A DNA stretch of 64,000 nucleotides from NCBI RefSeq assembly GCF_026151205.1, contig NC_087077.1, positions 10,779,983 to 10,843,982 of the forward strand. Reading direction: 5' to 3'. Below, piece by piece: positions 4,705 through 64,000 of this stretch (positions are counted from its first letter, which is position 1; each line of letters opens with the position of its first letter). This DNA comes from Bolinopsis microptera (Eukaryota > Ctenophora > Tentaculata > Lobata > Bolinopsidae). Below the pieces are notes generated by a model that had not been told where the DNA came from, did not search any database, and worked only from the letters and a program-made list of their open reading frames with translations. The position numbers were made by a program, and so were the translations under genes.

Positions 4705-5554
4705 TTAACCATTTTTAAAACTTGATTTTTCACAAAGTAATCATTTTTCAAATCGATTTTACGCCATTAAGGAGTAATTTTATTCAAAATTTGAGGGCAT
4801 ATTGAAGTTAGATAATTGTTTAAGCATTCTGAAAATCTACCGGAAAGTTTTTCTAGCTTGCTCCTTCATAAAGATATTCGCTATTGAAGTTAGTGCTTTT
4901 TTAAAGAATAATTTTATAAAAACGCTAATTTTACGTTCTAGTATTCTCTGGTGTTGCACCATCCCTTGGGTTGTGGAGCTCAATTTTGCTTCCTAAAGCT
5001 CTAAATTGTGTCATAGGCTAGTTTTAAAGTTGAAAATCGAAAAGTTGCACACGTGGGGACACGCCCAAATTGATAGAAAATTGCTAAAATCACTGAAAAT
5101 TGCTGTTTTCACCAATTTCCGTCAACTTTGGAGTACCGTTGTGATTACAGTTCTTCTTAAAATACTTTGAAACTTTGCATGCTTATCAAACTATATATAA
5201 AACACCATCATGCAAAAATTTACGGTGATTCAATATTGGATGCGCACGCAACTTCCGCTCAAGGTTTGCACGTGCGAAAGGTTAAAATTTTGCTCATTCG
5301 TGATTTTGAACAAATTCTGCTTTGCCACGACAGTTCAATGTCATTATATATGAATTTAATGCCAACTTCAATGAGTATAAAGTGGCATATTCAGTCAGTG
5401 ATCGACCGATATGCTTACCTAAACACAAGGAAATGTTTTCAAAGGAAAAATTTCGAAATCGTTGAAATAACCTCCTTATTAATATTAATGAAGTTATGAG
5501 TTTACATTTCGGCTTTGTAAAGTACCCTGACATTATAATAAAAAAAGAGATGAT

Positions 5555-55134: not shown

Positions 55135-55314
55135 GTAGGAGAAAATACACCTCCTCCCTTCCTAGAATTCTACTATAAGTAGTCTGCATCATTTATCAAA
55201 CCGGCCTTTGAGTATGAGCGTTATTCGTAGGAGAAAATACACCTCCCTTCCTATAGTTCTACTTTAAGTAGTCTACCTCATTTAACAAACCCTTTGAGTA
55301 TAAGCGTTATTCGT
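55135..55314. repeat. 92-bp direct tandem duplication upstream of exon 1A
   Basis: Unit 1 (55135-55226) and unit 2 (55227-55314) both run GTAGGAGAAAATACACCTCC ... AAGTAGTCT.C.TCATTT ... CCTTTGAGTAT.AGCGTTATTCGT with few differences. The second unit ends 23 bp before the start codon of exon 1A, so it may lie in the promoter or 5' untranslated region. Confidence 0.85.
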
Positions 55315-55337
55315 CTTGGTTGTTGATACAGTACTAT

Positions 55338-55447
55338 ATGGCTTTCGTTAAGCTTAAAACGAAGCCTTTGCCGAAGGCTAAGGTCGTTAAAAAGAAGCCT
55401 AGAGTCGTTTATGCGAGGCCGAGGCCTCGATCACCGGGCTATGTACG
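55338..55447 (+). CDS. Alternative first coding exon (1A) of the MFS transporter
   Basis: ATG at 55338 opens 36 codons plus 2 bases and stops at CG|GTAAAT (donor 55448). The peptide is Lys/Arg/Pro-rich: it starts MAFVKLKTKPLP, has a KKKPRVV block, an ARPRPRSP stretch, and ends GYV(R). It is clearly paralogous to exon 1B at 56060: same M-x-FVK-x-K start, same (K/S)PRV block, same GYV(R) end, same donor and same phase 2. Spliced to the exon at 56594 it gives codon CG|C (Arg) and stays in frame. Read without splicing, the frame ends at the TAA inside the donor, so a 37-aa peptide is the alternative reading. AG-type acceptor context (GTTGTTGATACAG) occurs 7 bp upstream of the ATG. It could be a true alternative promoter/exon or a relic of a duplicated gene. 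Confidence 0.6.
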
Positions 55448-56059
55448 GTAAATGTGGGGTTCATTGGGGAATTTACATTGAAACATCAGACTTAACCCGA
55501 CCTCCGAAATTGCGAAAGATACCAATTATTCTTGTTTGAAAGCATTATCAACTACATTCGACACGACTGACCAGTGGTTAGAAATAGAGATTATGGGGTC
55601 TACCTTGTGTTTCACAAGATATATATAAAATTTAGAATTTGAATCGAGTTTAAATCTGATCACCCACTCTTCTAGAACTTTCCTTAAGTACCACATAAAA
55701 TCCTCCTTCATTTACCATTTTAAACCATGTAATATAATCAGTAATTACACTAATTCAACATGGTTACACAAGGTTAATCCAATGTTGTGACCAAAAAAAC
55801 ACTAGCCTCATCAAACTACGTGGCCTTGGAATGTCCAGTATTTGAATATTTGAGTTTGTTACTGCGTTCATTTTAATTCTACGGAATAACGGTATTTATA
55901 ATTTGCCACGGCCTCTCTTGTCACCCTGCTAAATAAACGACGATCTTCCTAATTTGTCGAAGACCTTAAAGTGGGATCACCCCATAGTTAAAATACTAAT
56001 CCGGCCCTTGATATTTATTTCATTTGATTTGCTTGCTGATCCACAGCTGCTGAGTTGTT
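55448..56059. other. Intron 1A / upstream region of exon 1B
   Basis: Non-coding in the + direction. A 61-codon minus-strand frame (55526-55711) has no recognisable domain. The sequence just before exon 1B, GCTTGCTGATCCACAG, resembles a splice acceptor 13 bp upstream of the ATG. Confidence 0.45.
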
Positions 56060-58974
56060 ATGCCTTTCGTTAAATTTAAAAAGAGGGCTGAGCCTAAGCC
56101 GAAGGTCGTTAGTAAGAGCCCCAGAGTTGAGAAATTAAGGCCGAAGGACACTCAATCGTCAGGCTATGTGCGGTAAATTGGGGTAGACGGGGTTTAGTGA
56201 GACACTAAAGACTGAATTTTGATTCTGATCATTAATAAAATTTAATTGGCAAAAATACATATATTCGTAACGAGATGGTTCGAAGTTTCAGTGTTTAACC
56301 ACTGAACAGTGAACGCTGCTATTACTCTATTAGTTTAATACAATGGTTGTGACTTGTGATCATGTGACCTATATTCTATTTTTGGATAGCCACATATCAC
56401 CACTTTCTATCATCACTCTGATGAATAAACGGAAAACATGCCGACAACAACTACATCCGACATAACAGTGACCAGTCCTGAATTATTTAATAAATTAATA
56501 ATAATATTTCCTTCCGTTTCACAAGATGTTTTCTTGCATTTTTTCACAAAATATTTCCTTGTGTTTCATAATATAAAAACCTCTATTCCTCAGCCCGACT
56601 GAGTACGTGACACAGATGAACAGGAAAAATGCTCTGCAACTAGCAGACCAGGAAGTAGCTCTTCAGGAGGTGCTACATTTTCTTGTACAGGGTCTAGCTT
56701 ATCTTCTGCTTATCCTGATTATCTGCAGCTTTGGGTTCGTCACCGGGTTAGAGGTGAGTTTCAACGTGCTTTTAAACGGATTTAGATATTTCGAACTTTC
56801 ATTTTCTATTAACATTACGTTTGGAGGATCAGCAGATTATCAATTTATTGACCAGGAACGACTATTTTTTGTTGCACCCCTCTAAATTCCTCTTCCACAG
56901 TACCTATCGTATCCTCTCCTGATGAGACAGTTGACCTGTACGGAAGAATGGGGAACCATATACCAAAGTGTTTTACCGTCAGCCAATTTACTGGCAAACA
57001 TGATCGGATCTATCGTTGGTGGCATTGCTATTGATAAGATTGGAAGGAGACCAGTATTTATTGTTTCTGCGCTACTTGCTATTGTCGCAGGTTGGTTTAC
57101 AAAATTTAACTTTTTTTATACATAAGCTTCAACTTAAATTTTGTTATTGTAGCATGTATATTGTATAAGTTCAACTAGCAGCGACTTTTTAGCCAAACAA
57201 ATGTGATCACACAATCCTAATTCATATTGTATAAGTTCCGTAGAATATATGAAAACAAAGTTAAACGAAAAACTTGAATAGTTAAAATTAATTATACATA
57301 TTACATTTTACATGCATATTCTAATTTTCTTGAATGGCGTACTCAATTCTGCTATCTGTATATTTATATATATACTACTTGAATATGTAAATTCAGATTT
57401 TAAGTCTCCGTCCGGCTCATTAGACAGGGTAACAGAGTCTGTTAGCAGAGTCCGTTAGCAGAGTCTGTTAGCAGAGTCTGTTAGCAGAGTCTGTTAATAG
57501 AGTCTGTTAGCAGAGTCTGTTAGCAGAGTCTGTTAATAGAGTCTGTTTGCAGAGTCTGATAGCAGAGTCTGTTTGCAGAGTCTGTTAGCAGAGTCTGTTA
57601 GCAGAGTCTGTTAGCAGAGTCTGTTAATAGAGTCTGTTAGCAGAGTCTGTTAGCAGAGTCTGTTAGCAGAGTCTGTTAGCAGAGTCTGTTAGTAGAGTCT
57701 GTTTGCAGAGTCTGATAGCAGAGTCTGTTTGCAGAGTCTGTTTGCAGAGTCTGTTAGCAGAGTCCGTTAGCGGAGTCTGCACCTTAAGTCAGTACTCAGT
57801 CATACGTATATTTAATTTTCGGACACTGTTTATTATCATCAATTATTTTCACCTTATTAGTTATTAAACCTCCATTTTTGCAGAGTTGGTGAGCATGATC
57901 TCGATGGAGACGACCCTGTTCATAGTGGCACGCGGTCTCTCCTCCCTGATAATGGGTGTCCTGTACATCACCACCCTGCTCTACACGATAGAGACATGTC
58001 CAGCTAAACACAGACTCCACTCCTACTTCCTACACTTTCTTGCACAAAACGCTGCCACCACCATTGTCCCTCTCATTATAAGTAATTCTCCGGTTGATGG
58101 GACTACTAACATTTGGCCTGCTGTCTCCAACAGTGTGGTCGTTCTGTTGGCTCTGGGAGTCATCGTGGGGATCCTCTACCCAGAGCCCTCCCAGAGCAGC
58201 AAAATCCGAGCCAACACCGGTTCAAAGTTCCAGAACAGGTTCAGTGTCATGCAGCTGGAGAATGATGACGAGATTCATGCGGAGCCTGAATTCGCAATGT
58301 ACACTGACATGTTTTATAAGGGCGGCAAGGTTGTGGGGTGTCTTCTCATACTCCTATTTTTTATCGGAGGTTTAACTTCCACATCATTGTATCTCTCGTT
58401 TCCCATCATCTATAACTCAAACGGGGTGTGCACTGCGAATGAACAATATTCAAAGCCGTGCATGGAGGAGACTGCGAGTTATGCGACTCACGTGACGAGT
58501 ATCGACGAGCTGGTAACAGTATTTGGGTGTTCCATCTTAGGATCAGTGCTAGCGTACATAGCAGTACAGAGATACGGGAGGAAGAACAGTTACCGGGCCC
58601 CCGCAGCTTTTAGAGTGGTCGTTATTGTCAGTATGGTGATGTGTGGCAGTCACCGTCTCATGCTGTCCCAGGTTGGTCTCCTCGTCCTGTTCACCAACAC
58701 CATGGACTTCACGCTAGATCTTTACTGCTTAGAGCTGTTCGCTGCTAGAAGCAGAGCCACTTCCTTTGGGTTACTCAAAGGACTCAAGTTCTTTGGAACT
58801 GCCATTGCGTTCTTAATTAATCCTTTTATTTTAACGTACGTACCTCCAGACCTTTTGTGGTCAATATATACTGTGGTAGGGACTATTTTATTCGGATGCT
58901 CGTTAGGCCTTAGGAAAGACACTTTTATTATGGCAATTAATATTGAAGAATCTACAATAGACGTTGGATTGTGA
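56060..58974 (+). CDS. MFS transporter (SLC22/SV2/SLC2-like), four coding exons
   Basis: Exons 56060-56172, 56594-56753, 56901-57090 and 57884-58974 (stop TGA), all with GT-AG borders, join to 1554 nt (517 aa). Exon 1 is a Lys/Pro-rich cytosolic tail (MPFVKFKKRAEPKPK..., ending GYVR). TM1 is near residues 68-90, TM2 113-134, then the MFS loop signature GGIAIDKIGRRP (131-142), TM3 142-163 and TM4 166-189. E191-x-x-P194-x-x-x-R198 follows TM4, as in sugar and organic-ion porters. TM5-6 are at about 207-252, a central cytosolic loop at 255-298, and TM7 at 302-321. An outer loop has two Cys (337, 347); TM8 is at 362-382, QRYGRK at 383-388 is the second-half counterpart of the first signature, and AARSRATSFG at 441-450 precedes TM11-12. 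Length and 12 segments fit a complete transporter. The substrate cannot be told: GLUT-type PESPR is absent. AATAAA at 59233 is a possible polyadenylation signal. The intron before exon 4 holds a minisatellite. Confidence 0.85.
57429..57781. repeat. 13-bp minisatellite in the last intron, about 27 copies
   Basis: GTTAGCAGAGTCT and variants (GTTAATAGAGTCT, GTTTGCAGAGTCT, GATAGCAGAGTCT) in tandem. Variants recur in blocks, e.g. the trio TTAATAG / TTTGCAG / GATAGCAG appears twice, which shows higher-order duplication. It ends about 100 bp before the exon 4 acceptor. Confidence 0.95.
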
Positions 58975-61581: not shown

Positions 61582-62759
61582 ATCCAACCACTCAAAATTG
61601 CCAACAGCTGTCATAATTTTACCACTGTATTGGCCCACGTTGTTAACAGCTCGTTCGAACAAGGGGTCTTTCCCCAAGCCTTGAAAACGGCAAAAGTAGT
61701 TCCTGTACATAAAGGTGGATCTAAAACTGACATCAAAAATTACAGACCGATATCTCTACTTGCCACTTTCTCAAAAGTCTACGAAAAGCTTATGCACAAT
61801 CGAGTCATAAATTTTTTGGATACCTACAATATTCTTTGTGAAAATCAATACGGCTTCCGCCCAGGTAGGTCTTGTGAACATGCACTTCTTAATGCTAAAG
61901 ACAGAATTCTCAATTCAATGTCTAAAAAGCAAGTTACTTTGCTCCTCTTGATTGACTTTAGCAAAGCCTTTGACCTTGTGGATCACTCCATACTCCTGAA
62001 TAAGCTCGAGCACTATGGCATAAGAGGTCTAGCTTTAAACTGGTTTAAATCATATCTTATGAACAGAAACCAGTTTGTATCAATTGGATCCTCTGAATCC
62101 TCAGCCAATCCAATTATTTACGGTGTACCCCAAGGTTCAATTTTGGGACCTCTCCTTTTTATAATCTACATAAACGATCTTCCTCAAATATCAGAAATAG
62201 CTAATTTCATCATGTACGCAGATGATGCAAACATTTTCCTAACAGGAGAAAATATAAACGAGGTTTATGATAAGCTCAAAATTCTTAGCGATGTCTTAGT
62301 TAAATGGGTAGATAACAACGGATTAGCTCTAAATCTTAAAAAACGAATTATATGATCTTTTCTCGACAAAGAAACCTCATTTATCGCGATGTAGTAATTT
62401 CTGGTGTCACAATCGAAAGAAAAACAGAAGCCCGTTTCTTAGGTGTTATAATAGATAACAAACTGAACTGGTAGCAACATATTTCTGCCATGAAAATGAA
62501 AATGGCCAGATACATTGGAGTCATGTACAAACTTAAAAAATATTTGCCTCTGGAAGCACGTTTACAAATATATCACAGCTTTGTGCAGTCTCACCTTAAT
62601 TACTGCTCCCTCGTCTGGGGTTTTGCTGCCAAATCCCATATAGAAACACTATTTGTTAAACAGAAAATGGGTCTTAGAGCAATACTACCAGGTTTTGTTA
62701 ATTACTGGTACAAAGATGGTACACCACCAGCAAGTACCAAGGGGAAGTTGGTCGTTTAG
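61582..62759 (+). pseudogene. 5'-truncated LINE reverse transcriptase (CR1/Jockey type), broken
   Basis: The frame is open from 61582 with no stop until 62355. It begins in the region before RT motif 1 (AKVVPVHKGG, NYRPISLL), then YGFRPGRSCEHALL, the motif A LLIDFSKAFD, motif B GVPQGSILGPLLF, and the catalytic motif C YADD, then LNLKK. Next comes a one-base loss in an A-run (62338-62343), which shifts the frame; the shifted frame continues with the usual LINE thumb region (ARFLGVIIDNKLNW, QSHLNYCSLVWG). An in-frame TAG at 62472-62474 breaks it again. The 3' end stops abruptly at about 62754, where satellite DNA begins. No endonuclease domain is present. Motif order is typical of the CR1/L2/Jockey group; the clade is inferred. 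Confidence 0.9.
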
Positions 62760-62767
62760 CTCCGGAC

Positions 62768-62935
62768 AGTCTATGCAACGTCTATGCAACGTTCGTGCAA
62801 CAACAAAAGAACCGTCTATGCAACGTCTATGCAACGTCCCTGCACAATGAACACTCTATGCACACTCCCTGCACGGTCAGTCTATGCAACGTCTATGCAA
62901 CGTCTATGCAACGTCCCTGCGCAGTACCATATGAA
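62768..62935. repeat. 12-bp satellite CGTCTATGCAAC
   Basis: GTCTATGCAACG units in runs of two or three, with variants (GTTCGTGCAAC, GTCCCTGCAC, CACTCTATGCAC), directly after the LINE fragment. Confidence 0.85.
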
Positions 62936-63397
62936 CACCGGCTACTAGCCGGCTAGTAGCCACTTTTGTAATAACAGCTCCTCAACTTCACATTAACAAC
63001 CGGCTACTAACCGGCACTTGAAAAGTGGTCACTAGCCGGCTACTAACCGGCTACTAGCCGGCTAGTGACCACAAAGTGGCTACTAACCGGCTACTAAGCG
63101 GTCACTAGCCGGCTATTAGCCGAGCTCTAAAGCAGACCTATTAGTAGCCGGTTCTAAACCGGCTACTAGCCGGCACTTGAAAAGCGGTCACTAGCCGGCT
63201 ACTAACCGGCTACTAACCGGCTAGTTACCACCAAGTGGCTACTAACCGGCTACTAACCGGTCACTAGCCGGCTCTAAAGCAGACCTATTAGTAGCCGGTT
63301 CTAAACCGGCTACTAGCCGGCACTTGAAAAGCGGTCACTCGCCGGCTACTAACCGGCTACTAACCGGCTAGTAACCACCAAGTGGCTACTAACCGTA
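62936..63397. repeat. CCGGCTACTAA-type satellite with ~147-bp higher-order unit
   Basis: Built from 11-bp CCGGCTACTAA / CCGGCTACTAG and partial inverted forms (CCGGCTAGTAGCC). A higher-order unit containing CTCTAAAGCAGACCTATTAG, ACCGGCACTTGAAAAGCGGT and ACCACCAAGTGGCTAC recurs with a period of ~147 bp (CTCTAAAGC at 63125 and 63272). GC content is well above that of the surroundings. Confidence 0.85.
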
Positions 63398-64000
63398 CTC
63401 CTTTTTATAATCTACATAAACGATCTTCCTCAAATATCAGAAATAGCTAATTTCATCATGTACGCAGATGATGCAAACATTTTCCTAACAGGAGAAAATA
63501 TAAACGAGGTTTATGATAAGCTCAAAATTCTTAGCGATGTCTTAGTTAAATGGGTAGATAACAACGGATTAGCTCTAAATCTTAAAAAACGAATTATATG
63601 ATCTTTTCTCGACAAAGAAACCTCATTTATCGCGATGTAGTAATTTCTGGTGTCACAATCGAAAGAAAAACAGAAGCCCGTTTCTTAGGTGTTATAATAG
63701 ATAACAAACTGAACTGGTCGCAACATATTTCTGCCATGAAAATGAAAATGGCCAGATACATTGGAGTCATGTACAAACTTAAAAAATATTTGCCTCTGGA
63801 AGCACGTTTACAAATATATCACAGCTTTGTGCAGTCTCACCTTAATTACTGCTCCCTCGTCTGGGGTTTTGCTGCCAAATCCCATATAGAAACACTATTT
63901 GTTAAACAGAAAATGGGTCTTAGAGCAATACTACCAGGTTTTGTTAATTACTGGTACAAAGATGGTACACCACCAGCAAGTACCAAGGGGAAGTTGGTCG
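63398..64000 (+). pseudogene. Second copy of the LINE 3' part (direct duplication)
   Basis: 603 bp matching 62152-62754 at an offset of 1,246 bp, from just after RT motif B to the same abrupt 3' end. The only difference I found is TCG (63718-63720) where the first copy has the stop TAG. The A-run frameshift is shared, so duplication came after that damage. The window ends exactly inside the repeat, so the array may continue. Confidence 0.9.

Follow-up and report, generated by a model that had tools for sequence, protein, structure and literature searches.

The window analyzed here is a 64-kb stretch of Bolinopsis microptera DNA (contig C6:10779983-10843982), and a gene, hereafter gene A, was modelled on its forward strand between positions 55338 and 58974. 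Two short exons, 1A (55338-55447; 36 codons plus 2 nt, MAFVKLKTKPLPKAKVVKKKPRVVYARPRPRSPGYV) and 1B (56060-56172; 37 codons plus 2 nt, MPFVKFKKRAEPKPKVVSKSPRVEKLRPKDTQSSGYV), both end at a CG/GTAAAT donor (the slash marks the splice point) and share the acceptor of exon 2 (56594-56753), which encodes the end of the N-terminal tail and hydropathy peak 1 and holds an ATG at 56616-56618. Exon 3 (56901-57090) covers hydropathy peak 2 and part of peak 3, and exon 4 (57884-58974) the remaining transporter body with the stop codon. GTAAAT is a less than ideal donor. In computed joins, 1A and 1B each run in frame into position 56594 through a CGC (Arg) codon, and the joined frames comprise 517 and 518 codons including the stop, respectively (516 and 517 amino acids), with no internal stop. 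When read unspliced, the GTAA at each donor gives a stop (CGG TAA), and 1A and 1B could therefore each be a complete ORF of 37 or 38 codons. Directly upstream of exon 1A, on the same strand, an 89-bp unit occurs twice in tandem (55135-55314) and possibly belongs to a promoter or outron region. Intron 3 contains a minisatellite (57433-57779) made of 26.7 copies of a 13-bp unit; intron 3 of the paralogue described below measures 173 nt. At 62160-64000, a reverse-transcriptase-like stretch recognized by eye is present twice, its copies being accompanied by 11-bp repeats (GTCTATGCAAC; AACCGGCTACT) with a 147-bp repeat in between.

The predicted product of gene A is an MFS transporter. The protein beginning with 1B matched the Pfam families PF00083 (Sugar_tr, E 1.8e-16) and PF07690 (MFS_1, E 8.7e-16), both above the curated cut-offs, and displayed 12 hydropathy peaks at a cut-off set for this analysis and by hydropathy only. 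Twelve membrane helices are the usual number in MFS transporters. Relatives in the PDB were weak, the best being SLC22A6 (E 0.001). In members of the SLC22 family, helices 1 and 2 are separated by a large extracellular loop. No loop of this type was found in the gene A protein, in which, as judged from hydropathy only, 32 residues separate the peaks at 64-82 and 115-133, and so short a first loop speaks against classic SLC22 membership.

Exons 1A and 1B share 72% identity over an ungapped alignment of 86 nt. Six-frame searches of the genome assembly (264.65 Mb in 232 contigs), in which the best candidates were scored, placed the 1B peptide at three sites genome-wide and the 1A peptide at the same three sites plus one weak match (E 0.85). 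Since such matches are so few, the likeness between 1A and 1B is attributed to homology and not to general low complexity. Each of the three strong matches is followed by a transporter exon 2 that shares its orientation and phase. The alignment and the intact joined frames bear out the proposal of the first-pass annotation that 1A and 1B are homologous first exons ending at CG/GTAAAT and joining position 56594 in frame; with their shared end phase and common downstream acceptor, they have the predicted structure of tandem-duplicated alternative first exons. Splicing 1A to 1B in series through a candidate AG at 56046 would lead to a stop after ...GYVRC, with the 1B ATG three codons further on in the same frame.

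An intact paralogue, gene B, was recovered from the 94-kb stretch examined, in which the window numbering is continued past 64000. Its exon 1C (82291-82403) occupies the 1B slot about 26 kb downstream of gene A, ends at the same CG/GTAAAT donor, has the length of 1B and is identical to it at 25 of 37 residues. Exons 2, 3 and 4 (82640-82784, 82958-83147 and 83321-84411) keep an intact frame, and gene B joined to 1C reads 513 codons including the stop, with the intron phases of gene A. We considered and rejected the possibility that gene B is an uncollapsed allele of gene A, introns 1, 2 and 3 being 53%, 69% and 65% identical. A third transporter copy is represented by a 3' fragment, which lies in the opposite orientation at 79300-79526 on the minus strand (positions 4983-5209 of locus L006) and matches the end of gene A at 88% identity; the rest of this copy was not found in the 94-kb stretch. 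The transporter body, initially described as single-copy, is so inside the window, but the intact paralogue and the 3' fragment are present about 15-20 kb past its end.

The start of gene B exon 2 carries no ATG, and the next Met is situated behind helix 1, so that the start codon of gene B is to be expected in 1C or in another upstream exon. The beginning of exon 2 is kept in frame in both genes (PTEYVTQ in A, PTEFLTQ in B), and changes before the ATG of gene A are synonymous or conservative only. A basic tail of the 1B/1C type is thus very probably coding, which we regard as much more likely than the joint use of both exons. The earlier idea of one transporter with two possible N-termini holds as a gene model, and the ATG-less exon 2 of the paralogue strengthens it for the 1B type. 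The three exons contain 12 (1A), 11 (1B) and 10 (1C) Lys or Arg residues and 0, 3 and 0 Asp or Glu residues, respectively. The different uses previously deduced from the acidic residues of 1B are not upheld by this comparison, as 1C, the gene B exon in the same slot, has none; the acidic residues are peculiar to 1B and no mark of the slot.

Pairwise dS values were 0.50 (1A-1B), 0.50 (1A-1C) and 0.47 (1B-1C), with dN/dS ratios of 0.65, 0.57 and 0.40, respectively. Genes A and B can be aligned with 67% identity over 595 nt of the noncoding DNA that separates the 1A donor from the 1B ATG, and this shared DNA indicates that both exon slots predate the gene duplication. In agreement with the first-pass annotation, the exon duplication is not fresh, as seen from a dS of about 0.5 and from the noncoding DNA between the slots that gene B has in common. 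The same noncoding alignment contains 13 gaps whose length is no multiple of 3; 2.5 such gaps would be expected in 113 nt, and the probability of finding none, as in the equally long 1B and 1C, is 0.085. In neutral simulations, the observed amino-acid identity was reached in 5% of the runs for 1B-1C and 15% for 1A-1B, and a stop appeared in 65% and 72%, respectively. For 1B/1C these data favour selection, with borderline significance; for 1A, on which selection is not significant, they are only suggestive. The dS between genes A and B was 0.08 in exons 3-4 versus 0.47 in exon 1 (1B-1C), and the low divergence of exons 3-4 would be consistent with gene conversion in the 3' portion.

The 1A slot of gene B is occupied by an open frame of 240 codons (80832-81553; positions 6515-7236 of L006), and the alignment of genes A and B revealed no basic 1A-type exon in this upstream slot. 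The frame lies directly upstream of a 1A-like GTAAAT donor, and with an exon end at 81553 its phase fits exon 2 at 82640. None of 2000 shuffled versions of the stretch stayed open. A search with a 218-residue query gave 54 places passing E 0.001, including the query itself; three other places are 58% identical over residues 10-113, and the rest show 29-39% identity. We call the frame gag-like because several of its matches sit in open frames of 1400-1570 codons and because the frame at one of them, L011, gives Pfam matches to an aspartyl protease and to zinc knuckles, none of which reaches the curated cut-offs. The frame itself matched no Pfam family at E up to 1, and no close DNA copy was found apart from short repeats on contig C4, by a search that skips very common words. 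In comparison with L011-L013, the frame shows a dN of 0.26 and saturated synonymous differences (five of the nine other fetched loci were compared, from 53 other matches). The frame may be a chimeric first exon, or the remnant of an insertion. Since the 1A counterpart of gene B has been replaced, a 1A-type exon can evidently be lost.

The pattern ACAAATTAATTTGAGGT was taken from the spliced leader (SL) printed for H. californensis (PMC8527503). Its four exact matches in the genome all fall at C13:12.81-12.89 Mb, where an SL-like exon resembling this SL and followed by GT is found in a 5S rRNA array. Allowing one mismatch gave 23 matches, and the reversed pattern gave 5; of the 23, the C13 cluster holds 7 and 16 lie elsewhere, and the two of these 16 that were examined (L044, L045) are unlike SL genes. 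Loci L040-L043 of the C13 cluster consist of tandem 5S rRNA units with the SL-like exon in the spacer. L040, read whole, has four 5S rRNA genes in 3 kb, its copies being ragged, perhaps through assembly noise, and L041-L043 were read in their middle part. These arrays indicate that the species has SL RNA genes. The published H. californensis SL had no match in the 64-kb window at up to 3 mismatches, and the motif AATTTGAGGT has a single occurrence there (minus strand, 20567), no more than chance would give, as 29 of 100 shuffles contain one or more.

Candidate 3' splice-site AGs on the plus strand precede both first exons of gene A, at 55330-55331 (GATACAG/TACTATATG), 6 nt before the 1A ATG, and at 56045-56046 (GATCCACAG/CTGCTGAGTTGTTATG), 13 nt before the 1B ATG. 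The latter aligns with an AG in gene B, and 1C likewise has an AG 13 nt before its ATG. In a ctenophore genome with SL genes, AGs placed 6-13 nt before the ATGs are candidate SL acceptors, with an undistinctive sequence: the pyrimidine content is 0.67 at the AG before 1A, and the AGs of 1A, 1B and 1C rank at the 88th, 88th and 95th percentiles among all plus-strand AGs of the 94-kb stretch, in which six modelled acceptors span the 47th to 99th. The SL was present on 56% of the Hormiphora Iso-Seq reads (PMC8527503).

Our preferred explanation, held with somewhat better than even confidence, is that positions 55338-58974 constitute one MFS transporter gene in which 1A and 1B are both used as alternative first coding exons. 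It is supported by the homology of the exons, their intact frames, their phase and the paralogue. A transcript would take either 1A or 1B and be cis-spliced in frame to exon 2, and the resulting cytosolic tail of about 63 residues would vary over its first 36-37 according to the exon chosen. The 5' end of the mRNA would probably be formed by SL trans-splicing at the AG that precedes the ATG by 6 nt in 1A and by 13 nt in 1B, with transcription starts that may be separate or shared. Since 1A and 1B included in series would run into a stop, the use of one should preclude the other, barring a restart of translation at the 1B ATG. By analogy with SLC2A9 and TTM-1, the tail would most likely affect membrane sorting, stability or the tuning of transport. 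We infer the use of 1A in RNA, the SL acceptors and a function of the tail, the last also from LdAAP24. The role in trafficking or lipid contact raised by the first-pass annotation is likewise conjectural.

A substantial competitor, to which we give clearly less credence, is that 1A represents a decaying or unused duplicate and that the N-terminus of the transporter comes from 1B only. It would agree with the non-significant selection on 1A and with a gene B devoid of 1A-type sequence in the upstream slot. However, the 1A frame is still open after a dS of about 0.5 and a one-codon length change, and its donor is intact in the same phase; 31 random substitutions would leave it free of stops with a probability of about 0.28, which makes frame survival suggestive but not decisive. 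Far less plausible, in our opinion, is that 1A and 1B are stand-alone small genes ending at the TAA within GTAAAT and encoding unspliced basic peptides of 37 and 38 residues. Both exon frames do reach this genomic TAA, and an AATAAA occurs within about 75 nt after 1B and 1C, but the three strong matches of the assembly all precede a transporter exon 2 with which they agree in orientation and phase, donor positions +5/+6 (AT), past the stop, are alike in 1A, 1B and 1C, and exon 2 of gene B requires an upstream start. It is equally hard to credit that the transporter starts at the exon 2 ATG (56616), with 1A and 1B untranslated or unrelated. This ATG does lie in frame, 22 nt into the exon, and a TATAAAA-like stretch is found directly before the acceptor, but gene B lacks that ATG and yet gives an intact 513-codon frame through 1C, and the codons before the ATG differ between A and B only synonymously or conservatively.

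If both exons of gene A are used as alternative first coding exons, the locus would offer a testable case of an early-branching animal with SL trans-splicing that varies protein ends by means of duplicated exons, and in the paralogue next to it a mobile element may have replaced one alternative end. The likely N-terminus of the transporter shifts upstream of exon 2. A combined scenario, which we judge doubtful, is that the N-terminus of a ctenophore transporter is switched by two SL-accepting first exons while in the tandem paralogue the 240-codon frame, derived from a retrotransposon gag, has occupied the upstream slot and yields a Gag-tailed alternative isoform via the same donor. Among the literature matches listed, none dealt with duplicated transporter first exons in ctenophores, which is no proof of absence, and none, by title and start of the abstract, with a Gag-derived first exon of a transporter.

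Homologous tandem exons swapped within a protein have been catalogued in human, with 40 of 236 tandem duplicated exon substitutions being N-terminal (PMC9741552); those are annotated in GENCODE, whereas the 1A/1B pair is a prediction from genomic sequence. In Leishmania, alternative trans-splicing gives two N-terminal forms of the transporter LdAAP24 with a differing substrate range (PMC4637868), but there an acidic tail is truncated by 18 residues, versus the exchange of homologous basic tails proposed here. The C. elegans transporter locus ttm-1 likewise has two start sites, each giving an N-terminus of its own; SL1 is found on both mRNAs, 3 or 4 nt ahead of the ATG, and the isoforms localise differently (PMC3662639). 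It differs in encoding a CDF zinc transporter whose N-terminal exons (two versus one) the cited excerpts do not present as duplicates. In human SLC2A9 (GLUT9), a single MFS transporter body also bears two differing N-termini, and those of the long and short isoforms were concluded to affect membrane sorting and stability (PMC3883675). The authors were unable to pin down the responsible residues and quote another group as seeing no basolateral signal in the long tail, and the cited excerpts do not describe the N-termini as homologous duplicated basic exons. Taken together, alternative first exons on a transporter are a kind of arrangement already known from SLC2A9 and ttm-1, and the one reported here is probably real.
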